This document shows, piece by piece, positions 37,126-52,904 of a stretch of DNA of 64,000 nt. Source of the stretch: Pyrinomonas methylaliphatogenes (lineage in GTDB: Bacteria; Acidobacteriota; Blastocatellia; Pyrinomonadales; Pyrinomonadaceae). The position numbers and the translations under genes are program-made. The stretch lies in the NCBI RefSeq assembly GCF_000820845.2, contig NZ_CBXV010000001.1:310001-374000 (forward strand), read 5' to 3'. How positions within the stretch are numbered: the first letter of the stretch is position 1; each line of letters starts with the position of its first letter. The notes under the pieces were generated by a model. It did no database searches. It was not told where the DNA came from and was given only the letters and a program-made list of their open reading frames with translations.

Positions 37126-37168
37126 CATTGTCTGAAAACAGACAATCATCGTCTGTTAATAGACAATG
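37126..37168. promoter_or_regulatory. two tandem dyads, probable enhancer sites
   Basis: Dyad 1 is ATTGTCTGAAAACAGACAAT (37127-37146), a perfect inverted repeat with 8-base arms. Dyad 2 is TCGTCTGTTAATAGACAA (37149-37166) with one mismatch in its arms. Their centres are 21 bp apart, two helical turns, and the outer ends (CATTGTCT and AGACAATG) are themselves complementary. The shared half-site is TTGTCT. They lie about 110-130 bp upstream of the predicted sigma-54 start, where an enhancer-binding protein would sit. Confidence 0.75.
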
Positions 37169-37258: not shown

Positions 37259-37308
37259 AGCATTCGATCAGCGGAAAAGAGTCGGGAGCTTCCATTAGAG
37301 GGGCGATG

Positions 37309-37908
37309 ATGGAGCTTGTGCGAAAGGTCATCTTGATTTTTGCCATTGTGCTACCGCTCTTTGTTGAAGTTCAGGGGCATGGTGGTGAGGATCATGTCGA
37401 GAGCGTGGCACAAACTTCATCGGCGGGAGAGACCATCACGCATCTTGCGCGAACGGGCGATTTCGAACTGTTCTTCAAGCATGCGCCCGTCACTCCGGAT
37501 CGGGCGACCGCGGCGGACATTTTCCTCTCGCGCTACGAGACGAATGAACCGGTCGGCGGCGCGCGCATCGAGATCACATTCGCCGGCCCGAGCGAGGCGA
37601 AGGTTGAAGCGAAACCTAACGATTTGGCTGGGCGATATGGAGTAGAGCTCCCGCCGTTAGCGCGAGGCGAATATCGCATCTCGGCGCGCGTCGAAATGGA
37701 TGGGAGAAGCTCTGTTGTTGATTTGGGAACGCTCGATGTCGCCCCCGTGACGATGCCTGAGCAGATGGCGAATGAACGCGCCGCGCTTCGGGCAACTATT
37801 ATCTTGTTGATCTCCCTTATGGCGATCTTGCTCGTAGCGATCTTAGCGCTCTTCTGGCGTGCGTTGAGCCATCGCTTCAAGGCGGAGAAGGAGGCGACGG
37901 CGGTTTGA
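37309..37908 (+). CDS. periplasmic HGGEDH protein with C-terminal membrane anchor
   Basis: A 199-residue protein, first gene of the metal operon. The ATG at 37309 follows GAGGGG five bases upstream. A signal peptide ends VEVQG, so the mature protein probably begins HGGEDH, a metal-ligand-rich start. Residues about 50-140 form a beta-sandwich-like domain (GDFELFFKHAPVTPDRATAADIFL, then ARGEYRISARVEMDGR). One membrane helix near the end (IILLISLMAILLVAILALF) anchors it. It resembles the N-terminal module of the adaptor encoded at 40153-42288. A periplasmic metal-binding or pump-accessory role is inferred. Confidence 0.75.
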   Translation: MELVRKVILIFAIVLPLFVEVQGHGGEDHVESVAQTSSAGETITHLARTGDFELFFKHAPVTPDRATAADIFLSRYETNEPVGGARIEITFAGPSEAKVEAKPNDLAGRYGVELPPLARGEYRISARVEMDGRSSVVDLGTLDVAPVTMPEQMANERAALRATIILLISLMAILLVAILALFWRALSHRFKAEKEATAV

Positions 37909-39503
37909 TGCATCACATCTTCGATCGCAAATCGAAGCGCTATCCTTCGCTGGAAGTCAAACGGTGTGATGTCGGATCGGGCATAAGGCTCTGCGTGATG
38001 TTCTCGCTGATGGTGATCTTCGGATCGTGCGTCAACGCGGGCCAGCGAATATTCGGAGCGCAGGGCCTCGGTGCGGAATCGAAGAGGACTGCGGTCGAGA
38101 TCCAGGCGCCGATCAGTCGAGAGCAGACCGCTATCGGATTGGACCAGAAAGGAAAGCGGGCGTCGGCGCAGTATTTGGATGAATCGGGTCTGACGGTCGA
38201 GAAGTTGATTGACCTCGCTCATCAGAAGCGGGCCGATCTACTTGCGGCGCAGGCGCGCGTCGGCGCGGCACGTGCTCGATCTCTCCAAGCCGGTTTGCGT
38301 CCCAATCCGACGCTCGATATCGAGTACGGCACGCCGCGCTTTCTCGGCGGCGAGGCGGAGCTGGATTTCGCCGTCGGCGTTTCGCAACTTTTCGAACTCG
38401 GCGGCAAGCGCCGATTGCGTCGGGAAGCGGCGCGTCTCGAAGCGGAACGGGCGGAAGCCGAGTTTCGCGCGCTCGAACGGCAGATCGCTGCCGACGTGCG
38501 CGTTTCTTACGCGCGCGCCGTCGCTGCCGGAAGGTTTCTGGATACGGTGGATCAATTGGTCGCGCTCAACGAGGAGTTAGAGCGGGCGACGGCGGAGCGG
38601 GTCAAAAGAGGCGATGCCGCGCAAGTGGACCTGAGTTTGGTGCGCGTTGAACTCGACCGCTTGCGGGTGGAAAGGGCGCGCGCGTTAGCCGATCTCGAAT
38701 CGGAGATGATCGCCTTGCGCGCCGCCGTCGGTCTAGATCCGACGGACTCTTTGCGGATCGTTCCACTCGTCGAACGTCCGCCGCGACTCGAGCTTTCATT
38801 GCCGGAACTTACCGCCATCGCGCTACGTGAGCGAGCGGACCTTCAAGCGGCGCGCCTTGCCGAAAGAGCAAGCGTTGCGCGCTTGAAGCTGGTCGAAGCG
38901 CGCCGGACGCCGGACCTTGCCGGCACGGCCCGTTTCTCGCGCAGTCGGCAGATCGTGGATTTGCCGGAGAGGATAGGCGGCATCGCCTTGGACAAAGACA
39001 ACGAGTTGACTTTCGGCATACAGATCGAACTTCCGATCTTCAACCGCAACCAAGGCGAGATCGCCGCCGCAGCCAATGAACAGATACAAGCGACGCGAGA
39101 GCGCGAAGCGCTCGAAGCGAAGATCAAGCGCGATGTCGCGCTCGCTTACAGGCAGTATCAGGCTGCGGCGGAAAGCCTCGCGCTCTTTTCGACGCGCGTC
39201 ATACCGCAGACGGAAACGGTACTCGCGAGCGTGCGCGCCGCTTACGGACTCGGTGAGTTCTCGGTCTTCGACCTCTTGCAAGAACAGCGGCGATTGATCG
39301 AGAGCGAAACGGCTTACAGTCAAACCTTGCGCGATTACTACTCGGCGCTCGCCGAACTCGAACGCGCCACGGGCGCGCCGCTTCCGCGCGAGGCTTTCGC
39401 GCCGCGCGCAACTTCCAGCGCGCCGCGACTTGATCTGAAGAGCATCGAACGGCTCACGGCGAGTGATCCGCGTTGGGACGATCGCGATCCCGGTCAGCGA
39501 TAG
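37908..39503 (+). CDS. TolC-family outer-membrane efflux channel (CusC/CzcC type)
   Basis: A 531-residue outer-membrane factor of a tripartite metal efflux pump. Two repeats of paired long helices are visible: ARVGAARARSLQAGLRPNPTL with the PNP turn, FELGGKRRLRREAARLEAERA and a second copy after residue 300 (IELPIFNRNQGEIAAAANEQ). A hydrophobic stretch ending MVIFGSC may be a lipoprotein signal preceded by an unusually long N-tail, so the true start may be further in. The start codon overlaps the previous stop. Confidence 0.88.
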   Translation: MHHIFDRKSKRYPSLEVKRCDVGSGIRLCVMFSLMVIFGSCVNAGQRIFGAQGLGAESKRTAVEIQAPISREQTAIGLDQKGKRASAQYLDESGLTVEKLIDLAHQKRADLLAAQARVGAARARSLQAGLRPNPTLDIEYGTPRFLGGEAELDFAVGVSQLFELGGKRRLRREAARLEAERAEAEFRALERQIAADVRVSYARAVAAGRFLDTVDQLVALNEELERATAERVKRGDAAQVDLSLVRVELDRLRVERARALADLESEMIALRAAVGLDPTDSLRIVPLVERPPRLELSLPELTAIALRERADLQAARLAERASVARLKLVEARRTPDLAGTARFSRSRQIVDLPERIGGIALDKDNELTFGIQIELPIFNRNQGEIAAAANEQIQATREREALEAKIKRDVALAYRQYQAAAESLALFSTRVIPQTETVLASVRAAYGLGEFSVFDLLQEQRRLIESETAYSQTLRDYYSALAELERATGAPLPREAFAPRATSSAPRLDLKSIERLTASDPRWDDRDPGQR

Positions 39504-39556
39504 ACGAGTTTTGGGAAGAACGCTTTTCGAAATCTTGTTCCGGAGCTTGGAGGTTG

Positions 39557-40150
39557 ATGAGAGCAACGATCATTTCGGTGCTGAGTTTGGGCGTCGCCTT
39601 CTGGAGCGCATGCGCGACCGAAAAGCGCAAAACCTCTTCCAACGCTAACTTGAGAAATGTAGCCGCAGTCAACGCAAACCTCTCCACGACGAACGATGTG
39701 CCAGCGGAAGTGCGGGCGGCGCTCGCTGGCGCGCAAACTGTGGTTGCGGAACGGAAGGAGCTCTCCGCCGCGCAAGCGGCTGAGGTCGAGCGCGAATCTG
39801 GAGCGAAGCTTGAGAGCGCGGCGCACACGACCTATCTGGGTTATGCGCTGAGCGGTGGGGTGCGAAAACAAGTCGGAGCGGCGACCGTGCTCGAGGTCGA
39901 AGGCCAGCGTCTCGTCGTCGTTTACGAAAGTCGCAACGGATTGCCGTATATCAAAGAGGTGCGGGCCGCTGACTTGCCGCTCGCGTTTCTCACACAATTT
40001 CAAGGCAAAGGTCACGATGACCCGTTGCAGCTGGGGCGCGATGTGCAAGCGCACGGCATGGATGAAAGGTTGGCAAGAGCCATCACCGACGCCATTCGTC
40101 GGGATACGCGCATCATGCAGGCGCTTTATGGGGCGCCGCATACGCACTGA
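39557..40150 (+). CDS. lipoprotein of unknown function in metal operon
   Basis: A 197-residue lipoprotein: the ATG at 39557 follows GGAGG, and the signal peptide ends FWSAC (Cys about 19). The mature protein has an Ala/Asn-rich linker, then a domain of about 130 residues with TYLGYALSGGVRKQVGAATVLEVEG and ending ERLARAITDAIRRDTRIMQAL. The latter part faintly recalls FMN-binding (RnfG/NosR) domains but lacks their flavin-linking SGAT motif. Placement between channel and adaptor genes suggests a role in the efflux complex or in sensing. Confidence 0.6.
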   Translation: MRATIISVLSLGVAFWSACATEKRKTSSNANLRNVAAVNANLSTTNDVPAEVRAALAGAQTVVAERKELSAAQAAEVERESGAKLESAAHTTYLGYALSGGVRKQVGAATVLEVEGQRLVVVYESRNGLPYIKEVRAADLPLAFLTQFQGKGHDDPLQLGRDVQAHGMDERLARAITDAIRRDTRIMQALYGAPHTH

Positions 40151-40152
40151 AG

Positions 40153-42288
40153 ATGAACTGGATGTCGAACCGGTCCGGGAGACTGAAACATGCAGAGAGG
40201 GAAGTGGCGATCTCTAAGATGTTAGGTTCCTTCTTCGCGCTAACTGAAACGATCGGGTGGCGTGATGCGCGCGCTCGCGATCAAGAGCGCGTTCGAGATG
40301 CGCGTGTGTGCGCGGCTGAACCGGTCGCATCGCGTGATGCGCGCTCTCGCCGCAAAGAAGATCTCAACTTCTTCTCCATCTCGTCGCGATCGTTTGTGCG
40401 AGTGTGGCGCGTGACTTTGAGCGCGCTTCTTCTCTTTGCTTTCGTCACGGCGCGCGCGCACGAAGGCGAAGATCACGGCGCCTCGCCGAAACGCGCGACC
40501 GGAACCGCGGCTGGTCCAGCAGTGCGCATGGCTGAGCGGAACGTGCAGACGCCCGTCGGTCAGTTCCGCGTCCGCTTGCGTCAGATGCCTTTCGATCCGC
40601 GCACAGGCGAAGAGGCGCAGTTCGAGGTCGAAGCTCTGGAGCGCGTCGAAGGCGCTTTCGGGTCGAGCGAAGGTCTGCAGTCAGTGAACATCGCACGCGC
40701 CGTGGCGCGTTTGAGTCGAGCTGATGGGACCGCGTTGGAACCGGCGCTCGACACACACGCGGAGAGCAGTCCGGGCGTTCGCGGCGTTCACTACGTCTTT
40801 CGTGAAGCTGGCGAGTACAAGATCGCTTTTGACTTCGCGCTCGCCGACGGGCGTTCTTTCTCCGTCGATTTCCCGGTCTCGGTCACAAAAGCGCCAGTCA
40901 ATTGGAGCTTCTGGATCGGGCTTCTCCTTCTGGCATTGCTTTCGGTCGGCGTGGTCGTCATTCGTTCCGCTCCATTATGGCGCGCGCGAAGTGAGCGCAA
41001 AGGGGTTGCACGCCACATCGCTCCCGCGACCGTCGTCGCCGCCATCATATTCGCCATTGGTCTGCTCCTTCTACTGCGCTTCGAACCGCCGCGTCGAATT
41101 CGAACGGCGACCGAAGTGACCGTAAGCGCGGCGGCGGCCACTGGCGCGGCGACCAGTTCGGAGATCGTCATCCCGAAAGAATCTCAGTTGCTCTTCGGCA
41201 TTCGCACGGCGTTGGTCGAAGAACGCCCCGTGATTGCCGGTCTGAAGGTGACCGGCGTCGTGCGCGCGCGTCCCACTTCGCGCGCGACCATCGCGCCGCC
41301 CGTCTCGGGGCGCGTCTTTTTCAAGAACGGATTGACGCTCGGCTCCTTCGTCGCGCGCGGCGAGCAGATCGGCACGGTCGAACAGATCCTCGGCGCATCG
41401 GAACAAGCTGGACTTGAAGCGCAACGCACGGAGCTACAGCGCGCCGTGCTGGAGCAGCAGGCGAAAAGAGCTGAACAAGAGGCGCTGGCGCAACAAGCGC
41501 GCGCGCGTCTCGCTCAAGCTGAGCGCGAACTGCGCCGAGCGACGGAACTGCTCGAAGTCGGCGCTGTGCCGCGCAAGCGCGTCGAAGAGGCGCAAACCGC
41601 CGTGCAGATCGCGCGACAAGAGGTTCTCGCCGCCGAACAACAAGCGCGCATCGCCGCCGAACAGGCGCGCGTGGTGAAGGCGGGGGCAGAGCGCATCGGT
41701 CCAGTTCGACGCTTCCCATTGATCGCGCCGGTGGCGGGCGTCGTCAGCGACATCAGAGCGACGACAGGGCAACAGGTCGAAGCGGGAAGCGAACTGTTGA
41801 ACATCGTCGATCTGTCGGTTGTCTATCTCGAAGCGCGAGTCTTCGAAGGCGATTTGGCGAAGGTGCGCGATGCGCGACGGGCGAGTTACACGACGGCGGC
41901 ATTTCCCGGAGAGGTCTTTCATCTCGGCGAAGGCGGACGCGGACGCATCGTCGCCATCGGAACCGCGGTCGATCCGCAGACGCGGACCGTGCCGGTGATC
42001 TTCGAGGTCATGAATCCGGCGAACCGTTTGCGCGATGGCATGTTCGTCGAAATCGTTTTCGACATCGGCGAGACGGCGCCCGTGCTCGCCGTGCCTAAAC
42101 GGGCTGTCGTCACCGAAGAAGGGCGCACGTATGTTTTCGTCTTCAACGGCGGCGAAAGGTTCGAAAAGCGCGCCGTTCTACTCGGCGCCGAGGGACAAGA
42201 CTTCTACGAAGTCAAATCGGGCCTGAGTCGGGGCGAGCGCGTCGTCGTCGATGGCGTTTATCAGTTACGTTCTGCGCGACCGGGATGA
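40153..42288 (+). CDS. RND membrane-fusion adaptor with extra N-terminal periplasmic module
   Basis: A 711-residue adaptor (CusB/CzcB type) linking the inner-membrane pump to the outer-membrane channel. An export signal ends FVTARA, so the mature chain may start HEGEDHG (His103 of the full frame). A beta-sandwich module (about 125-245) follows, then two membrane helices (SFWIGLLLLALLSVGVVVI and ATVVAAIIFAIGLLLLL), then the usual adaptor: lipoyl half ATIAPPVSGRVFFK, a coiled coil of about 110 residues, RFPLIAPVAGVVSD and a beta-barrel/MP domain. The 80 residues before the signal are basic and may not be translated; GTG at 40396 would give a normal signal peptide. Confidence 0.85.
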   Translation: MNWMSNRSGRLKHAEREVAISKMLGSFFALTETIGWRDARARDQERVRDARVCAAEPVASRDARSRRKEDLNFFSISSRSFVRVWRVTLSALLLFAFVTARAHEGEDHGASPKRATGTAAGPAVRMAERNVQTPVGQFRVRLRQMPFDPRTGEEAQFEVEALERVEGAFGSSEGLQSVNIARAVARLSRADGTALEPALDTHAESSPGVRGVHYVFREAGEYKIAFDFALADGRSFSVDFPVSVTKAPVNWSFWIGLLLLALLSVGVVVIRSAPLWRARSERKGVARHIAPATVVAAIIFAIGLLLLLRFEPPRRIRTATEVTVSAAAATGAATSSEIVIPKESQLLFGIRTALVEERPVIAGLKVTGVVRARPTSRATIAPPVSGRVFFKNGLTLGSFVARGEQIGTVEQILGASEQAGLEAQRTELQRAVLEQQAKRAEQEALAQQARARLAQAERELRRATELLEVGAVPRKRVEEAQTAVQIARQEVLAAEQQARIAAEQARVVKAGAERIGPVRRFPLIAPVAGVVSDIRATTGQQVEAGSELLNIVDLSVVYLEARVFEGDLAKVRDARRASYTTAAFPGEVFHLGEGGRGRIVAIGTAVDPQTRTVPVIFEVMNPANRLRDGMFVEIVFDIGETAPVLAVPKRAVVTEEGRTYVFVFNGGERFEKRAVLLGAEGQDFYEVKSGLSRGERVVVDGVYQLRSARPG

Positions 42289-42366
42289 TTGCGCGGACTT
42301 GGCGACGAGAACGGACCTACCGATGACGAGGAGGTGCGAATAGTTTGACGAGTGATGGAGGAGAAG

Positions 42367-43161
42367 ATGGTGAACAGAATCTCTTTAGGAAGAAGGCTTG
42401 TGAATTCAACGGAGGTGAAGTTCGGTCGCGGAGTCGAGCGAGCGCGTCGGCAGCGGTTGCCGGTCGTTGCGATTGTGAGTTTGGTCGCGGCGCTCACGGT
42501 CGCGTGCGGAGCTGGACAGCAAAAGGTTAACGAGAACGCAGTGCAGAGCGCGACGGCGAACCAGAACGCGCGCCACGGCGAAATGCACGATGGGCACGCA
42601 ATGCACGGCGAAATGCACGATGGGCACGCAATGCACGGCGAAATGCACGATGGGCACGCAATGATGGATCACTCGCAGATGCAGAGTTCGCCGGGCGCGG
42701 AAAAAGCTCCTTACGACTTGCAGTTCATCGACACGATGATCGCGCATCATCAGGGTGCGATAGAGATGGCTCGGCTGGCCGACGGACGCGCCGAGCACGC
42801 AGAGCTGAAGGAGCTTGCGCGCAAGATCGTCGCCGATCAGGAGCGCGAAATCGCTCAGATGCGCAAGTGGCGCACCGAGTGGTACGGAGAGCGTGCTCCG
42901 GCAATCAACATGGAATTGCCCGGCATGCGCGAATCAATGCAGATGGATATGCGCCAGCTTGCGGAAGCGCGCGGGCGCGATTTCGATCTGCTCTTCATCG
43001 ACATGATGATCCCGCATCACGAAGGCGCAGTCGTGATGTCGCGGCAAGCGCTCGAGCGGGCCGAGCACGCCGAGTTGAAGAAACTGGCCGAGCAGATCAT
43101 CGCCGCACAGCAGGCCGAAATCGCGCAGATGCGCAAGTGGCGCACCGAGTGGGGGAAGTGA
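42367..43161 (+). CDS. lipoprotein with His/Met repeat and two DUF305 domains
   Basis: A 264-residue lipoprotein (ATG after GGAGGAGAAG; lipobox TVAC, Cys47). Residues 70-99 are three exact copies of HGEMHDGHAM. Two DUF305 domains follow, each with an FID.MI.HH.GA metal motif (FIDTMIAHHQGA and FIDMMIPHHEGA) and an almost identical end (QMRKWRTEW), so the gene arose by internal duplication. DUF305 proteins are linked to copper handling. It is likely a periplasmic Cu or Ag sponge or chaperone for the pump. Confidence 0.88.
   Translation: MVNRISLGRRLVNSTEVKFGRGVERARRQRLPVVAIVSLVAALTVACGAGQQKVNENAVQSATANQNARHGEMHDGHAMHGEMHDGHAMHGEMHDGHAMMDHSQMQSSPGAEKAPYDLQFIDTMIAHHQGAIEMARLADGRAEHAELKELARKIVADQEREIAQMRKWRTEWYGERAPAINMELPGMRESMQMDMRQLAEARGRDFDLLFIDMMIPHHEGAVVMSRQALERAEHAELKKLAEQIIAAQQAEIAQMRKWRTEWGK
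42574..42663 (+). repeat. three perfect 30-bp tandem repeats
   Basis: Three identical 30-base units (42574-42603, 42604-42633, 42634-42663), beginning CACGGCGAAATGCACGATGG, encode HGEMHDGHAM three times. Lack of any silent difference points to recent expansion or ongoing homogenisation, so the copy number may vary between strains. Confidence 0.95.
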
Positions 43162-43222
43162 CGCTTGACCGGGAGAGAGGTTCGGACGGATCTCTCTCCG
43201 CTCGTTGCGCGAGGTGAGCTCG

Positions 43223-46200
43223 ATGCTCGATGTTGTCATCAAGTGGTCGTTGCAGAACCGCTTATTGGTCGTCGCCATTGCGGCTTTGACGCTGGCGTGG
43301 GGGACTTACATCGCGCTTCAGTTGCCGGTCGATGTCTTCCCCGATTTGAACAAGCCGACGGTGACGATCCTGACCGAAGCGCCAGGGCTGGCACCCGAAG
43401 AGGTCGAGACGCTCGTCACCGTGCCGATCGAGACGGTGCTCAACGGCGCGCCCGGCGTGACGCGCGTCCGTTCGCAAAGCGGCATCGGGCTGTCGGTGAT
43501 CACCGTCGAGTTCGATTGGGGGACAGACCTCTACCGCAACCGCCAGTTGGTGAGCGAGAAACTTCAACTCGCGCGCGAGCAATTGCCTGCGGGCGTGACG
43601 CCCATGATGGGGCCGATCGGCTCGATCATGGGCGAGATCATGCTGATCTCTGTGCGTTCGCGTGACGGCTCGACCGGTCCGATGGAGTTGCGCTCGCTCG
43701 CCGACTGGACCATACGACCGCGATTGATGGCGATTCCCGGCATCGCACAAGTGATCAACATCGGCGGCGAAGTCAAGCAGTATCAGGTGCTCGTCTCGCC
43801 CGCAAAGCTCACGCAGTTCGGGTTGACGATCGAAGACATCGCGCGCGCGATGGAACGCGCCAACTTGAACACGACGGGCGGGTTCATCAACGCGCAATCA
43901 CAAGAGTTTCTCGTCCGCAATCTGGCGCGCGCGTACACGGTCGAAGATTTAAAGAAGACGGCGGTTGCATATCGCAACGGCGCGCCCGTCTTGCTCGGCG
44001 AAGTCGCTCAAGTCAAAGAAGGTCCGCGCGTCAAGCGAGGCGACGCTGGAACCAACGGCGAGCCCGCCGTCATCATGTCGGTGCAGAAGCAACCGGGCGC
44101 CTCCACAATCGAGTTGACTGAAAAGGTTGACAGCGCGATCCGTGAGATTCAGGCGACGCTGCCACCGGACATCGAGGTCAATCCGCGCCTGTTTCGTCAA
44201 GAGAACTTCATCCAAGCTTCGATCACCAACCTCATCGAGGCGCTGCGCGATGGCGCGATATTGGTGACGATCGTCCTCTTTCTTTTTCTGCTCAACTTGC
44301 GGACGACGGCGATCACGCTGACGGCAATCCCACTCTCGTTCATCGTCACCTTTCTCGTCTTCCGCGCCTTCGGCGTCTCGATCAACACGATGACGCTTGG
44401 CGGATTGGCCGTCGCCATCGGCGAGTTGGTGGATGATTCCATCGTCGATGTAGAGAATATCTTTCGCCGCCTGCGCGAAAACAGAGCGTCGCCCAATCCG
44501 AAACCGGCGCTGCGCGTCATCTACGAAGCATCGCTTGAAATCCGTTCGAGCATCGTTTATGCGACGTTCATCGTCGCGTTGGTCTTCGTTCCGCTTTTCG
44601 CTTTGACCGGCGTCGAAGGGCGGTTGCTTGCGCCGCTCGGTCTTGCCTACATCACGTCGCTCATCGCCTCGCTCGTGGTGAGTTTGACGGTAACGCCGGC
44701 GCTCGCCTCTTACTTATTGCCGCAGATGAAGGTGATGCGGCATGGGCGCGAAAGCTTTCTGGTCCGGTTCCTGAAGCGTTGGGACGAACGGCTGCTTCGC
44801 CACACGTTGCGTCATCCGAACGTCGTCATGGCTGGCGCTGGCGCGTTGCTTGCGCTCGCGCTCGCGACGTTGCCTTTCGTCGGCACCTCGTTTCTGCCGG
44901 AGTTCAACGAAGGCACAGTGACGGTCAGCTTCTTGGCCGAACCGGGAATCAGCCTCGAAGAGAGCGATCGCATCGGTCGCATCGCCGAGAGGTTGATCAT
45001 GGAGGTGCCTGAGGTGGTTGCCGTCGGACGGCGCACCGGTCGCGCCGAGATGGACGAGCACGCCGAAGGCGTGCACTCCGCGGAGATAGATGTTGACCTT
45101 CGGCGCAGCGAGCGCCCGCGCGATGAGATACTGCGAGATATTCGGCAGAGGCTTGCGACCATTCCGGGCGTAACGGTCAACGTCGGGCAGCCGATCTCGC
45201 ACCGATTGGATCACCTGCAATCGGGTGTGCGCGCGCAGATCGCCATCAAGCTCTTCGGCGATGATCTGGCGACTTTGCGCGACAAAGCCGAAGAGATCGC
45301 CAACGTCGTCGGCACGGTCGAAGGGGCGACCGACGTGCAGATCGAAAAGCAGGTGCTCATCCCGCAGGTGCGTTTCGCGATCGACCGCGAGGCAGCGGCC
45401 CGCTACGGACTGCCACCGGGTGAGATCGCCGAAACTTTGGAGATGGCGCTCAACGGAAAAAAGGTCTCGGAGATCGTCGATGCGCAACGGCGTTACGATC
45501 TCGTCATACGTTTCGACGACGAAGCGCGCGCTTCGCTCGATGCGCTTCGCAGCGTGACTGTGGATACGCCGCAAGGGACGCAGATCCCGGTTTCGGCTGT
45601 TGCGCGCATCGAAAACCTTCCGGGGCCGAATCAGATCCTGCGCGAGAACGCGCAGCGCCGGATCGTCGTCTCAGCGAACGTCGCCGGACGCGATCTCGGT
45701 TCGGTCGTGCGCGACATTCAAGAGCGCGTGCAGCGACAGGTGCAGCTTCCGCCCGGTTATTTCATCGAGTACGGCGGACAGTTCGAGGCGCAGCGAGAAG
45801 CGACTCGCAAGCTCACGCTGCTCAGCCTCTTTTCGGTCGTCGCTATCTTCTTCCTTTTGATCAAAGCGCTCGGCGACTGGCGTTCGGCTTTGCAGGTGAT
45901 GATCAACATCCCGCTCGCCTTGATCGGCGCGATCTTCGCCATGTTGCTCACTGGCGGCGTCTTCTCCGTGGCGACGCTGGTCGGATTTATCTCGCTTATC
46001 GGGATCACATCGCGCAACGGCATCATGATGATCTCGCACTACATTCACCTGATGCGTGAAGAGGGCGAAGACTTCACCGAACGAATGATCATTCGCGGCT
46101 CGCTCGAACGGCTCGTGCCGGTGATGATGACGGCGTTGACCGCTGGGCTTTCGTTGATCCCGTTCATCTTGGCGGCGGACGCGCCCGGCAAAGAGATCTT

Positions 46201-46396
46201 GCATCCGCTGGCGGTGGTCGTTCTCGGCGGCATTCTGACGTCGACGTTGCTGGACCAGTTGGTGACGCCTGCGGTCTTCTACAAGTTCGGGCGGCCTATT
46301 GCCGAGCGCGTCATCAGGGAGCGCCAGCTCAGGGAACCGGAACTTCGGGAAGAGAAGACGGCGCCGGTCGAGACGCCGCAACCCGTTGGAGATTGA
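43223..46396 (+). CDS. heavy-metal efflux RND pump (CusA/CzcA family)
   Basis: A 1057-residue inner-membrane proton-driven pump, the core of the tripartite complex. It has [16 protein letters not shown] in the first periplasmic segment, the usual 12 helices in two halves, the TM4 proton-relay stretch [20 protein letters not shown] and [13 protein letters not shown] in the second porter domain. ATG after GAGGTGAGCTCG. Metal choice (Cu/Ag versus Zn/Co/Cd) cannot be read safely, but the DUF305, cupredoxin and CopA neighbours favour copper or silver. Confidence 0.93.
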
Positions 46397-46493
46397 TCGC
46401 GCATCGGATGAAAATGAGGAGACGGCAAAAGCACGGGACGCGACCGCAAGCCTTTGGTCGCGCCGCGTTGACTGGCGAGAACAGGAGCGAGTC

Positions 46494-48983
46494 GTGAAAG
46501 CTTCCGTGGATCAGACCGAGATCGAAGATGGCCGTGAGGCCGGAACCGAGCGCGTTGATCTTCCGATCACCGGCATGACGTGCGCGGCGTGCGCGCGGCG
46601 CATCGAACGACAGTTGCGCAAAGTTGCGGGCGTTAAACAGGCCAACGTCAACTTCGCCACTTCGCGCGCCACGGTCGAATATGATCCGCGCGCGTGCGAT
46701 GCGCGACGGTTGATCGCCGCGGTCAAAGATGTCGGCTACGACGTCGGTGGTAGGTCTCATGTCAGTTTCATCGTGGATGATTCGGCGCGTCCGTCGGGTT
46801 CGAGCCAGCCGCTCGAAAGCCATCTGAAGCGCTTGCGCGGCGTTGTCGAGGCGAGCTTCAACTTGGTGAATATGGAGGTTCGCGTCGAGTACCTGCCGGG
46901 CGTCACAGACGCGCAGGCGATCCGCCGTGCCATCGAGGAGTTCGGCTACCAAGTGCGCGAAACGAGCGGCGAGGGGCCGCACGGTCTCGTCGAAGAAGAC
47001 GACGCGCACGCGGCGGAGTATCGAAGCTTGCGGCGAAAATTCATCGTCGCGGCGGTCCTTTCTCTTCCGGTCCTTTTCATCGCCATGTCGCACGGGCGAT
47101 TCGATTTTCCCGGCAGCGACTGGTTGCAACTCGTCTTGACGACGCCGGTCGTCTTCTACTGCGGCGCGCAGTTCTACAGGGGAGCGTGGGCCGCGTTTCG
47201 CCATCGCGCCGCCGACATGAACACGCTGATCGCAGTAGGCACCGGCACGGCTTACGTCTATTCAGTGGCGGCGACCATCTTCCCGCGCTTCTTCGCTCCA
47301 GCGGCCACGGGGCACGGTGTGCCGGTCTATTTCGAGGCCACGAGCGTCATCATCGCGCTCATTCTGCTCGGGCGGATGTTGGAAGCGCGCGCGAAGGGAC
47401 GAACGAGCGACGCGATCCGTCGTCTCATCGGGTTGCAACCGCGCACGGCGCGCGTCATCCGCGATGGCCGCGAGTTGGAGGTACAGGTCGAAGAGGTCGT
47501 GCCGGGCGATTTAGTCGTGGTGAGACCTGGCGAGAAGATTCCGGTCGATGGCGTCATCATCGAAGGATCGAGCGCCGTCGATGAATCGATGTTGACGGGC
47601 GAGAGCTTGCCGGTCGAAAAGGGTCCGGGCGATGAGGTCTTCGGAGCGACCATCAATCGGACCGGAAGTTTCAAGTTTCGGGCGACGAAGGTCGGCAAGG
47701 ATACCGTCCTGCAGCAGATCGTCAAACTGGTCCAAGAAGCGCAGGGCGCGAAAGCTCCCGTCGCGCGGCTTGCCGATGTGGTGAGCGGTATTTTCACGCC
47801 CATCGTCATCTGCGTGGCGATTGCGACCTTTGTGGTTTGGTACGTGGCTGCGCCGACGGATGTGCGTTTGAATATGGCGCTCGTCAATTTCGTCTCGGTG
47901 CTGATCATTGCGTGCCCGTGCGCGCTGGGACTAGCGACGCCGACGGCGATCATGGTCGGCACGGGACGCGGAGCCGAACTCGGCATTCTAATCAAGGGCG
48001 GCGAAGCGTTGGAGACGGCCCATCGGCTGCAAGTCGTCGTGCTCGACAAGACCGGCACCATCACCAAAGGACGCCCGACCGTCGTTGACATCGTCGCGGC
48101 GAATGATCTGGCTACTGATGAGCTGTTGCGTTTGATCGCTTCCGCCGAACGCGCCAGCGAGCATCCGCTCGGCGAAGCGATCGTGCGAGCGGCGCAGGCG
48201 CGCGGCCTCGAACTCAGCGAGCCGAACGACTTCAAGGCGCTCGCCGGCTACGGCATCGAAGCGCAAGTCGGAGGGCGCAAACTGTTGCTCGGGAACTTAA
48301 AGCTCATGCGCGAGCGTCAGGTCGCGCTCGATGGGTTCGAGGCGCAGGCGGCGAAGCTCGCCGCTGATGGAAAGACGCCGGTCTATGCGGCAGTGGATGG
48401 GCGTTTCGCCGGTCTGATCGCCATCGCCGACGAAATCAAGCCGGAAGCGCGCGAAGCGGTGGCGATGTTGGAGCTGATGGGGCTCGAAGTCGTCATGATC
48501 ACGGGAGATGATCGGCGAACGGCGGCAGCAGTAGCGCGCACTGTCGGCATCGAACGGGTGCTCGCCGAAGTCTTGCCGCAAGACAAAGCGCGCGAAGTCA
48601 AGCGCCTGCAGCAAGAAGAGAAGAAGACCGTCGGCATGGTCGGCGATGGGATCAACGACGCACCGGCGCTCGCGCAAGCCGATGTCGGCATCGCCATCGG
48701 GACGGGGACGGATGTGGCGATCGAGGCTTCCGACATCACGCTCATACGCGACGATCTGCGCAGCGTCGCAACATCCATAAGGCTCGCGCGCGCGACCATG
48801 CGCGTCATCCGACAGAATCTCTTCTGGGCCTTCATCTACAACACGCTCGGCATTCCGGTCGCGGCGGGCGTGCTCTACCCGTTCACTGGATGGCTGCTTT
48901 CGCCGATCATCGCGAGCGCGGCGATGAGCTTGTCGAGCGTGTCGGTGGTCGCGAACAGTCTGCGGTTGCGCAGATTCCGTTGA
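46494..48983 (+). CDS. copA: copper-translocating P-type ATPase
   Basis: An 829-residue P1B-type ATPase pumping Cu+ out of the cytoplasm. The N-terminus holds one metal-binding domain with GMTCAAC (Cys30, Cys33) and a second HMA-like domain (about 85-160) that has lost its CxxC. Membrane part: CPC motif in [15 protein letters not shown]. Soluble part: LTGES actuator loop, DKTGTI phosphorylation site, SEHPLGEAI and [23 protein letters not shown] start with GGAG seven bases upstream. It is cotranscribed with the efflux pump, so cytoplasmic and periplasmic export share one switch. Confidence 0.95.
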
Positions 48984-49518: not shown

Positions 49519-50061
49519 ATGGCAGCTATGAAGTCAGCGTGGCGTTACAAGGAGATCATCTTCGGCGTCAGTCTCGGGCTGGTGATGTGGATCGTGGACG
49601 CGGCGATGCACGTGCAAATGAGCGCCGAAACGGACGTGCTCGCAGGCTTCGCCGCTGAGCTTTTCGCTCCCGGGGCGACGCAGTTGTTCTTCCGTGCGCT
49701 TTTTCTGTTGATCGCAAGCGCGTTCGGGTTCGTTTTGTGGCGCGCCAACTGGCGCGAAAGGGAACTGCGCGCGCTCGAAGAGGCCATCATCGCCTTCCAT
49801 CGTCAACTCGACAGCCCCGCCATGCGCATTGTCAACCACGTGCGCATGTTACAAAGTCAATCTCATCCGGCGCGCGACGAACTGACGCAGACGGTGCTTG
49901 CTCTGATCGGCGAGGACGCGCGGATCATAGATGAGCTGGCCCAGCAGTACATACGCTTCAGCGAGCAAGTCGTGGCCGGGCGCACGCGCGAAGCGGTGGA
50001 GACTCTGCGCGCCATCGCCGCATGGCAGACCGCGCCGCGTCGCACTCCGCCCGTCGCTTGA
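49519..50061 (+). CDS. two-helix membrane protein with kinase-like helical pair
   Basis: A 180-residue protein. Two membrane helices (IIFGVSLGLVMWIVDAAM and LFFRALFLLIASAFGFVLW) flank a periplasmic loop, then a cytoplasmic helical pair about 75-165 (ALEEAIIAFHRQLDSPAMRI). That region looks like a dimerisation domain of a histidine kinase with its H-box eroded: it has a His but not the HE.R.PL pattern, and there is no ATPase domain. It lies six bases before the sigma-54 regulator, so it may modulate the two-component pair. Family unknown. Confidence 0.65.
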   Translation: MAAMKSAWRYKEIIFGVSLGLVMWIVDAAMHVQMSAETDVLAGFAAELFAPGATQLFFRALFLLIASAFGFVLWRANWRERELRALEEAIIAFHRQLDSPAMRIVNHVRMLQSQSHPARDELTQTVLALIGEDARIIDELAQQYIRFSEQVVAGRTREAVETLRAIAAWQTAPRRTPPVA

Positions 50062-50066
50062 ACGCC

Positions 50067-51494
50067 ATGTCGGAACACCATCGTATGCCGCAACCTGCGC
50101 TGCTCATCGTGGACGATGATGAGAGCTTGAGGCGCGTCCTCGAGTTTCAGCTGACCGAGAGCGGCTATCGCGTGCTGGCGGTTGCAGATGCGTCGGCGGC
50201 TTTGGATATTCTCGTCAACGAAGAGATCTCTTGCTTGGTCACGGACGTGCGTTTGCCGGGGCTATCGGGACTCGAGCTTCTGCGACGCGCCCGCGCCATC
50301 AACGACGGCGTTCCGGTCATCGTGATCACAGCCTATGGCGATGTCGAAACGGCGGTCGAAGCGATGCGCGCCGGAGCGTTCGACTTCATCACCAAGCCTT
50401 TCAACCGCGATCAGATACGTTTGACGGTGGAGAAGGCGCTCGCCTTTGGCCAGAAGATGGCGGAGTTGGCGCGCTTGCGGCGGCTCGTGCATGAGCGCTT
50501 CAGTCTGGCGAACGTCGTCGGCGATTCGCCCGCCATGCGGCGCGTCTTCGAAGTGGTCGAGCGCGTCGCGCCTTCGGACGTGACTGTTCTCATCACAGGC
50601 GAATCGGGCACGGGCAAGGAGTTGATCGCCCGCGGGATACATCTTGCCAGCGCGCGGTCGGCTGGTCCGTTCGTCGCCGTCAATTGCGCTGCCATTCCGG
50701 AGACGCTCGTCGAATCAGAATTGTTCGGCCATCGGCGCGGCGCTTTCACCGGCGCAACGCGCGACGTCAAAGGCAAATTCGAAGAGGCTTCGGGCGGCAC
50801 GCTCTTTCTCGACGAAATAAGCGCCATGCCGCTCGGCGTGCAGAGCAAACTGTTGCGCGCCTTGCAGGAGCGCGAGATCGTTCGTTTGGGAGAGAGCGCG
50901 CCGCGCAAAGTGGATGTGCGCATCATCGCCGCGACCAACAGGGATCTTCAGACGATGGTCGCCGATGGCGCGTTTCGCGAGGACCTTTACTATCGGCTCG
51001 CCGTCGTGCCCGTCGAACTCCCGCCGCTGCGCGAGCGACGCGAAGACATCCCCGTGCTTGTCGAGCACTTCTTGCAACAGGCGTGCGAGCGGCACGGTCG
51101 TCCACCCGTGCGCATTGCGCGCGAGGTCTTTGCCGCTTTCAACGCTTACGCTTGGCCGGGCAACGTGCGCGAACTGAAGAACACGATCGAGCGCATGGTC
51201 GTGCTCGCACGCGGCGACGTGTTGACGCTGGATGATCTGCCCGATCAGATCAAGAACACTCTTCGCGGCGCATCCAACGTGCTCGTGCATTTGCCGCCGG
51301 ACGGTATTTCGCTCGAAGCGGTCGAGCGCGAGATCATTCGACAAGCTCTCCTGATGCACGGCGGGAACCAGACGCGCACTGCGCGCTATCTGAACATCAC
51401 GCGCAGCGCGCTCATCTACCGCATGCAGAAGTACGGACTTACGGAAGAGACGGGAGGAGACAAAACGACGCAAACGGGCGAAGAGCCACGATAA
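50067..51494 (+). CDS. sigma-54-dependent response regulator (NtrC/ZraR type)
   Basis: A 475-residue enhancer-binding protein. The receiver domain has LLIVDDDESLRR, phospho-acceptor Asp60 (LVTDVRLPG) and ITKPF. The AAA+ domain has Walker A GESGTGKE (178-185), GAFTGA (225-230), which contacts sigma-54, and GGTLFLDEI as Walker B. The C-terminal Fis-type helix-turn-helix is GNQTRTARYLNITRSALIYR. It is the last gene of the metal operon, six bases after the previous stop. In E. coli ZraR is a metal-responsive protein of this class. It likely binds the dyads at 37126-37168 and activates its own operon. Confidence 0.93.
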   Translation: MSEHHRMPQPALLIVDDDESLRRVLEFQLTESGYRVLAVADASAALDILVNEEISCLVTDVRLPGLSGLELLRRARAINDGVPVIVITAYGDVETAVEAMRAGAFDFITKPFNRDQIRLTVEKALAFGQKMAELARLRRLVHERFSLANVVGDSPAMRRVFEVVERVAPSDVTVLITGESGTGKELIARGIHLASARSAGPFVAVNCAAIPETLVESELFGHRRGAFTGATRDVKGKFEEASGGTLFLDEISAMPLGVQSKLLRALQEREIVRLGESAPRKVDVRIIAATNRDLQTMVADGAFREDLYYRLAVVPVELPPLRERREDIPVLVEHFLQQACERHGRPPVRIAREVFAAFNAYAWPGNVRELKNTIERMVVLARGDVLTLDDLPDQIKNTLRGASNVLVHLPPDGISLEAVEREIIRQALLMHGGNQTRTARYLNITRSALIYRMQKYGLTEETGGDKTTQTGEEPR

Positions 51495-51821
51495 CGTTCC
51501 GTTGTTGCTATCTGTCGGCTGACGATAGAATTTTCTCGCAGGAAGGCGCTCTGAGTGGCGCAGATTCGCCGGGCAGAGAGTCATTTCAGACGGGATCGAT
51601 TGGGATCTGTTGCGAAGTTCGATTGAAGAGCACAATAACCAAAGTGCGCCGCGCTTTACGCACGACAATGGGACGCTTGAAGTCACGAAACCGTCATCCG
51701 AACACGAAGAGAGCAAAGATCATCTTATTTTGCAAATGCCGTGCGCGAGCGGGCGCAAAGAGAGTTAAGAGGGCCTTAAGGGGCTTTGAAGTGACCATCT
51801 TTCGCTAGGTCGCCACTGGCG
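51495..51821. other. intergenic region between regulator and kinase
   Basis: These 327 bases contain a terminator at the left end. The remainder includes an AT-richer stretch near 51710-51740 that may hold the kinase promoter. I find no -24/-12 match and no dyad like those at 37126-37168. A 61-codon frame at 51623-51808 has no family resemblance and is not called. Confidence 0.5.
51509..51536 (+). terminator. intrinsic terminator of the metal operon
   Basis: CTATC-T-GTC and GAC-GATAG pair (8 bp with one bulged T) around a GGCT loop at 51509-51529, followed by AATTTTC. It lies 15 bases after the stop of the sigma-54 regulator. Confidence 0.55.
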
Positions 51822-52904
51822 ATGAAAGTTCAGCGCTCAACTCTGCTTTACGCCGCTGGTGTGGCAGCGGCGACGCTTTCGATCACGGCGTTGCATCTGG
51901 TGACGCCGCTTGACCGGATCGTCCTCCATCAAATCTACCAGCGTCTTTATTACATCCCGATCATCGTCGCGGCGGTGCGTTTCGGACTGCGTGGCGGGCT
52001 ATCTGCCGCGTTGTTTGCCAGCATCGCTTACGTCCCTCATGTGCTCATGCACTGGCAGCACAGCAATCCGGATTATGCGCTCAACCAGTACGCCGAAATA
52101 ATCCTCTTCAACGTGGTCGGCATCGTTACAGGTGCGCTCGGCGACCGGAGTCGGACGGCGCGCGCGCGCGCCGAGCAGACGGCGGCGGAACTGCAACGCG
52201 CTTATGCCGAATTGAGGCAGACCTTCGAGCAGCTTTTGCGCGCCGATAGGCTGATCTCGCTTGGCGAACTTTCTGCCGCCATCGTCCATGAAGTGCGCAA
52301 CCCGCTCGGCGCGATCAAAGGCGCCGTCGAGATCATGGAAGATGGCATTTCGCCCGATAACCCGCGCCGCGAATTCGCCGCGATCGCCAAACGCGAGATA
52401 GATCGTCTTGATCGATTGGTCGAAGAGTTCTTGCGCTTCGCGCGTTCGCCGAAACCCGTAGTCGAGCGGGTCGATCTCAATGAAATCGTCGCTTCAGTCG
52501 CCGCGCTCGTCGAACGCCAAGCGGGGATGCAAGGCGTGCGCGTCGAACGGCGGCTTGCCGCGCGAAAGCTCGAAACGATGGCCGATGGCGCGCAAATACG
52601 GCAAGCGCTCATGAACCTCTGCCTGAACGCGCTGCAAGCGATGGCGCGCGGCGGCACGCTGACGCTCAGGACGAATACGAGCGATCGAAACGGCGTGAGC
52701 GTCGAGGTGGAGGATGAGGGCGGCGGAATCGACCCGAAGATCGCGGCGCGCATCTTCGATCCGTTCTTTACGACCAAAGAGCGCGGGCTCGGACTCGGGC
52801 TCTCGATCGCCTATAAGGTCGCCATCGAACACGGCGGCACGTTGACCTTCAGGAACGGGGAGAAGGGCGCGATCTTTCGTCTGGCGTTGCCCGGCGCAAA
52901 CTGA
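51822..52904 (+). CDS. multi-helix sensor histidine kinase, likely partner of the sigma-54 regulator
   Basis: A 360-residue kinase. Residues 1-105 hold four to five membrane helices with hardly any periplasmic loop (LLYAAGVAAATLSITALHL, YYIPIIVAAVRFG and others) and His-rich turns (VPHVLMHWQH), which could bind metal. Then a short coiled coil, the H box SAAIVHEVRNPLGAIKG (His156), N box NLCLNALQAM, DEGGGID and FFTTKERGLGLGL. This AtoS/ZraS-like catalytic part usually pairs with NtrC-type regulators. It lies 327 bases after that regulator, in its own unit. Confidence 0.88.
   Translation: MKVQRSTLLYAAGVAAATLSITALHLVTPLDRIVLHQIYQRLYYIPIIVAAVRFGLRGGLSAALFASIAYVPHVLMHWQHSNPDYALNQYAEIILFNVVGIVTGALGDRSRTARARAEQTAAELQRAYAELRQTFEQLLRADRLISLGELSAAIVHEVRNPLGAIKGAVEIMEDGISPDNPRREFAAIAKREIDRLDRLVEEFLRFARSPKPVVERVDLNEIVASVAALVERQAGMQGVRVERRLAARKLETMADGAQIRQALMNLCLNALQAMARGGTLTLRTNTSDRNGVSVEVEDEGGGIDPKIAARIFDPFFTTKERGLGLGLSIAYKVAIEHGGTLTFRNGEKGAIFRLALPGAN

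Follow-up and report, generated by a model that had tools for sequence, protein, structure and literature searches.

In Helicobacter pylori, crdA is the first gene of an operon that encodes an outer-membrane factor (OMF), an adaptor and an RND pump for copper. The title of one published account also points to this gene order (PMC12319023). Ang-1 has an Ig-like domain whose free N-terminal His binds Cu(II) through its amine, its imidazole and one weak ligand, with a Kd of about 74 nM (PMC12537917). The window surveyed in this study, a stretch of 64,000 nucleotides from Pyrinomonas methylaliphatogenes, holds an operon in which the motif H[G/E]GEDH follows the predicted signal peptide of two proteins, the small product of the leading gene (here P1) and an RND periplasmic adaptor (Table 1). 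The original prediction regarded both as exported, and it is supported that they are exported parts of a metal-efflux operon. The motif HGGEDH was not found in the literature searched.

It had further been claimed that signal peptidase would cut just before His in both proteins, which is confirmed as a prediction, though with competing sites. The N-terminus of P1, whose start codon is the ATG at 37306 or 37309, reads MMELVRKVILIFAIVLPLFVEVQG followed by HGGEDHVES..., and the best predicted site lies between V-Q-G and this His (codon 37378); a cut two residues further, between G-H-G and G, is conceivable. Read from GTG 40396, the adaptor begins with MRVWRVTLSALLLFAFVTARA followed by HEGEDHGASP... 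(His codon 40459), where a site between A-R-A and H is rivalled by one between V-T-A and RAH. Comparison of homologues placed Ala immediately before His in relatives. The listed start of the adaptor reading frame, 40153, is almost certainly too far upstream and GTG 40396 the probable start, because the adaptor ATG in a genome of the same genus (G001) sits 28 codons ahead of the equivalent cleavage site. An N-terminal His directly behind the signal peptide, as in the CopC and LPMO brace, is predicted in both proteins. With His at predicted mature positions 1 and 6 and none at position 3, an ATCUN (X-X-His) copper site is ruled out for either tail.

Table 1. Features of the operon and its surroundings, with positions in the window.
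Feature	Coordinates	Strand	Evidence or remark
Two tandem palindromes ATTGTCTGAAAACAGACAAT / ATCGTCTGTTAATAGACAAT	37127..37167	.	probable repressor operator ahead of P1
P1, small and exported; a signal peptide and HGGEDH tail precede an Ig-like domain and a single C-terminal membrane helix	37306..37908	+	
P1 predicted signal peptide, 24 aa, ...VEVQG before H	37306..37377	+	sequence, comparative
P1 predicted mature N-terminal motif HGGEDH	37378..37395	+	
P1 Ig-like beta sandwich, model residues 12-121	37411..37740	+	AlphaFold2 mean pLDDT 92; Foldseek top CrdA
P1 C-terminal helix with membrane anchor, model residues 129-175	37762..37902	+	model
Outer-membrane factor (TolC/OEP family)	37905..39503	+	Pfam OEP E 2.4e-45
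Small exported lipoprotein-like protein, ends ...YGAPHTH	39557..40150	+	no Pfam/NCBIfam family
RND periplasmic adaptor: HEGEDHG tail, Ig-like domain, two membrane helices, then membrane-fusion domain	40396..42288	+	
Adaptor predicted signal peptide, 21 residues, GTG start, ...VTARA before H	40396..40458	+	sequence, G001 comparison
Adaptor predicted mature N-terminal motif HEGEDHG	40459..40479	+	
Adaptor Ig-like domain, remote homologue of P1 domain	40522..40890	+	hhalign, model
DUF305 protein (CopM-like), HGEMHDGHAM repeats	42352..43161	+	Pfam DUF305 E 8.9e-59
HME-RND permease with HAEGVH and HRLDH (NieA-clade motifs)	43205..46396	+	TIGR00914 above cut-off
CopA-type Cu(I) P-type ATPase, ORF, true start uncertain	46299..48983	+	Cu(I)-ATPase motifs
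NtrC-type response regulator and sensor kinase, downstream of ATPase	50022-52904		possibly the region's metal sensor

Profile searches placed P1 in no Pfam or NCBIfam family. Its score against the YtkA-like profile (PF13115) was 13.5 bits, below the cut-off of 25.9, with weak matches in 12 of 57 relatives. The CopC profile (PF04234) had no match in the genome, P1 included, and two of the 57 P1 relatives reached E 0.006 at best; the missing match rules out CopC membership of P1. Nor did P1 match HupE/UreJ (PF13795), the fusion partner of the anglerases. The AlphaFold2 model of P1 shows, with high confidence, an Ig-like beta sandwich and behind it a single membrane helix, and the nearest solved structure is H. 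pylori CrdA, both apo and silver-bound (9ll2/9ll4; Foldseek E 1.5e-4). CrdA was also the top match of the adaptor Ig-like domain (E 7.5e-5), ahead of the periplasmic copper proteins P19/FetP and CopC; the TM-scores of the CrdA matches are moderate (0.64-0.70 on the target) and the profile match between P1 and CrdA is weak (E 0.051). Profile searches of solved structures led from P1 to filamin repeats and weakly to CrdA, and from the adaptor domain to an unrelated acetyltransferase, all of them taken as fold hints only, and the adaptor domain alone, used as a sequence query against solved structures, gave no match. The Ig-like domains of P1 and the adaptor are remote homologues of each other, with an hhalign value of 92.4% (E 5e-7) when the motif is left out and 98.7% when it is included. 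Conservation across the P1 family is confined to the motif His residues, one Glu, one Asn and some Gly, and the two motif His are the only invariant histidines.

Chance does not explain the motif at these two sites. When the 3.79 Mb genome was scanned with a degenerate DNA pattern for H[G/E/D..]GEDH, the only two hits were P1 and the adaptor, 3.1 kb apart; a codon-reordered control pattern had none in the same genome. Across 116 genomes the pattern gave 54 matches; at 15 of the 30 motif loci read it stood directly behind a signal peptide, all 15 being P1 or adaptor genes, compared with 0 of 19 loci for a scrambled control. Eight of the 116 genomes, the source genome included, carry a motif pair 2.6-3.1 kb apart. 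The P1 family was present in 9 of 60 relatives, and both His1 and His6 are kept in all 14 readable Acidobacteriota P1 proteins (9 plus 5 more from a further search), which were retrieved with the whole protein or the Ig domain. A motif-seeded search of 84,980 genomes returned 80 loci in Acidobacteriota, Bacteroidota, Myxococcota, Wallbacteria and Proteobacteria. Because this search was seeded with the motif itself it is circular for the motif, though not for the surrounding genes, and its motif counts were kept out of the conservation evidence, which was drawn from independent searches. The genes surrounding the 80 loci included an adaptor at 72, an RND permease at 58, a DUF305 protein at 33 and a CopA-like ATPase at 24. 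P1 is a real, widespread and unnamed accessory protein of RND metal pumps, and the adaptor bears a matched N-terminal tag that probably binds metal. In the motif-seeded search, at least 593 stretches matched [VAI]xAHG[GD]EDH, of which only 130 are P1 relatives.

The conserved feature is a short, flexible, acidic tail with two His on both partners. No single coordination geometry is conserved, because some adaptors have lost the tail and many relatives lack His1. The motif is gone from several Pyrinomonadaceae adaptors, betaproteobacterial tails are usually without His1, and this residue was found in only 1 of 12 separate proteobacterial P1 proteins, the other 11 beginning with Gly, Asp or Ala (e.g. 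GEGHDHG, DEGHDHG and APGAHGPNGEHLD). The tails match within operons. In Hymenobacter, HGGEDHG stands on both P1 and its own adaptor, even though that adaptor has no Ig domain, and P1/adaptor pairs in Burkholderiales include GEGHDHG/GEGHDHG, DEGHDHG/DEGHDHG and APGAHGPNGEHLD/APGAHGPNGEHLD. Own pairs scored 51.6 as against 32.4 for shuffled pairs, and 0 of 20000 shuffles came as high; for Comamonadaceae only, 177 of 20000 equalled or passed the score observed there. The test ignores kinship, so that co-inheritance of whole operons could explain part of the matching.

P1 and the adaptor form one protein in Chitinophagaceae, Flavobacteriales, Spirosoma, Myxococcales and Alphaproteobacteria. The motif-seeded loci include 27 of these fusions. 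In nearly all of them an internal signal-like segment is followed by a second two-His tail, and this hydrophobic segment ends in the manner of a signal peptide, as in ...YETVFA before HGGEDHDE. The window adaptor has the same build as the fusions but lacks the second tail. Eight individual loci were seen to encode fusions that combine the internal signal-peptide-like segment with a second tail of the HGGEDH type. At nine loci of other Acidobacteriota, the adaptor is a lipoprotein with a remote version of the domain, and the stretch behind the lipid Cys is often rich in His.

Some elements near the two genes also deserve mention. The tandem palindromes are two 20-nt copies placed 21 nt apart, about 140 bp upstream of P1; they form the only such site in the window and in the genome (two copies, with 0.08 expected in the window) and are a likely repressor operator. 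The C-terminal His tip of the small lipoprotein-like protein between the OMF and adaptor genes may be conserved, because its homologue in G008 (L020) ends in YGGAHSH. In G036 (L003, minus strand), a P1 homologue is adjoined by an exported protein with a predicted N-terminal His (NA before HDLFLKL), which we take to be DUF4198-like.

The motif, its position after the signal peptides, its conservation, its association with the operon and the matching of the tails are read from the sequences themselves, and from these we infer that cleavage, metal binding, the identity of the metal and its hand-over in a given direction are probably as follows. P1 and the adaptor would both be periplasmic components, anchored in the inner membrane, of one heavy-metal RND efflux pump. 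Once cut by signal peptidase I, each would start with a flexible tail in which two His are spaced by Gly and acidic residues, and the ligand of the tails would be a transition metal, in all likelihood Cu(II) and perhaps also Cu(I). P1 would catch metal in the periplasm, among it the copper that the CopA ATPase encoded next to it exports; its tail would pass the metal to the matching one on the adaptor, from which it would reach the permease, in the manner in which CusF serves CusB. The view that the two proteins bear short, matching tails which bind metal and deliver it to one pump is held here with moderate confidence; a metal-binding role is chemically sound because proteins of the Ang-1 type bind Cu(II). 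A bolder and rather doubtful extension is that paired tails, made by signal peptidase and co-evolving, relay metal from P1 to the adaptor, the fused precursors being cut internally and exposing two free His N-termini.

The tails may instead be a docking or processing signal, serving P1-adaptor recognition or efficient signal-peptidase cleavage and binding no metal, as their matching within operons and the position of the motif next to the predicted cleavage site would allow. However, the variants HGGEDHG, GEGHDHG and APGAHGPNGEHLD keep at least two His together with acidic residues, which is a metal-ligand pattern, and at that place His-rich stretches are common in the lipoprotein versions of the domain; this explanation is considered very improbable. 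The coordination first envisaged was a histidine brace like that of CopC and LPMO proteins. This reading is only partly supported, and the tails are not the CopC/LPMO brace, because no distal His supplied by the fold is conserved family-wide, His1 and His6 being the only conserved ones. A true brace, with the His1 amine and imidazole and a side chain of the Ig domain forming one structured Cu(II) site as in CopC, LPMOs or the mono-histidine brace of Ang-1, would be consistent with the retention of His1 throughout the readable Acidobacteriota P1 proteins, with an invariant Asn56 and a near-invariant Glu30 that could serve like Asn41 of Ang-1, and with a KH His in the domain that 7 of 10 Pyrinomonadaceae P1 proteins keep. 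Such a brace is nevertheless quite unlikely, as His1 is missing in relatives and about 5 to 20 linker residues keep the tail apart from the fold. Structure prediction, which had been proposed as a check, gave for the metal-free proteins Ig-like folds of both domains but floppy tails of low pLDDT (69 over the first ten residues of P1, 36 for the adaptor tail). What is left of the original prediction, the idea of a minimal copper-binding N-terminus, is a fair hypothesis and is better put as a matched pair of tails on two parts of a pump.

Copper is the likely metal for the tails and the pump, a choice favoured because of the CopA-type ATPase motifs, the DUF305 protein and the resemblance to CrdA. 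The DUF305 protein, encoded between adaptor and permease, carries three repeats of the HGEMHDGHAM type, and in Synechocystis the related CopM is a copper-binding protein that supports resistance to the metal (PMC4335983). The permease belongs to the HME-RND group (TIGR00914, 871 bits against a cut-off of 701) and is accompanied by an HlyD_D23 adaptor and an OEP protein. It has both motifs of the NieA clade, HAEGVH and HRLDH, from which this clade ('class 6') was proposed, by prediction only, to export nickel (PMC7060636); at the loci read, HR[LI]DH was found in 46 of 47 full-length permeases and HAEGVH in 14. The pump might accordingly be imagined as a NieA-clade nickel exporter whose tails bind nickel or another divalent ion, the more so as the unnamed exported protein 'cep' of the nie operon sits at the place of the P1 homologues in Cupriavidus and N-terminal-His proteins may prefer Ni (DUF6702). 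This appears unlikely, since the 'class 6' assignment is itself only predicted, genes for a CopA-type ATPase and a DUF305 protein belong to the window operon, and comparable neighbours occur at many Hymenobacter loci.

Matched tails receiving metal for one RND pump would add to these systems a widespread, unannotated accessory protein and a concrete six-residue ligand shared by two partners. How RND pumps collect metal from the periplasm is still debated, and the matched tails would make a direct transfer test possible. If cut, the in-frame fusions would be unusual in that one precursor yields two metal-binding ends, and a relay of paired tails, if true, would mean that RND metal pumps can follow a new rule of assembly.

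Among known systems, CusF and the C-terminal chaperone domain of SilB resemble P1 in serving a Cu/Ag RND pump as accessory metal carriers, either as a free protein or as part of the adaptor; they differ in having an OB-type fold with a Met/Trp/His site, whereas P1 is Ig-like with an N-terminal tail. CopC (PF04234) and LPMO proteins share the exported Ig-like domain and the N-terminal His, but P1 has neither a CopC family match nor a conserved second His in the fold, and it is membrane-anchored and encoded in an RND operon. The 'cep' product of Cupriavidus neocaledonicus (nieIC-cep-nieBA) is likewise an unnamed exported protein encoded between the OMF and the adaptor of a NieA-type pump, and P1 homologues, compared with it by position, occupy its place in Cupriavidus, Variovorax and other plasmids; it was, however, described without a function or a tail, the tails there mostly do not begin with His1, and nickel is assigned by prediction only. 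The anglerases Ang-1 and Ang-2 and the signal-strapping DUF6702 proteins have a signal peptide, His1, an Ig-like domain and metal binding beside a transporter (PMC12537917), but they are free or fused to HupE/UreJ permeases, while P1 accompanies RND pumps and carries another His at position 6; searches gave no match between P1 and these proteins in sequence or fold. The best structural match of both the P1 and the adaptor domains is CrdA (HP1326, crdAB-czcBA), a small exported protein that leads an OMF-adaptor-RND copper operon just as P1 leads its own. CrdA contains no His or Cys, and a Met-rich loop (MxxMPGM) has been proposed to bind its copper (PMC9182242), whereas P1 lacks the Met-rich motif and has a His tail and a membrane anchor.
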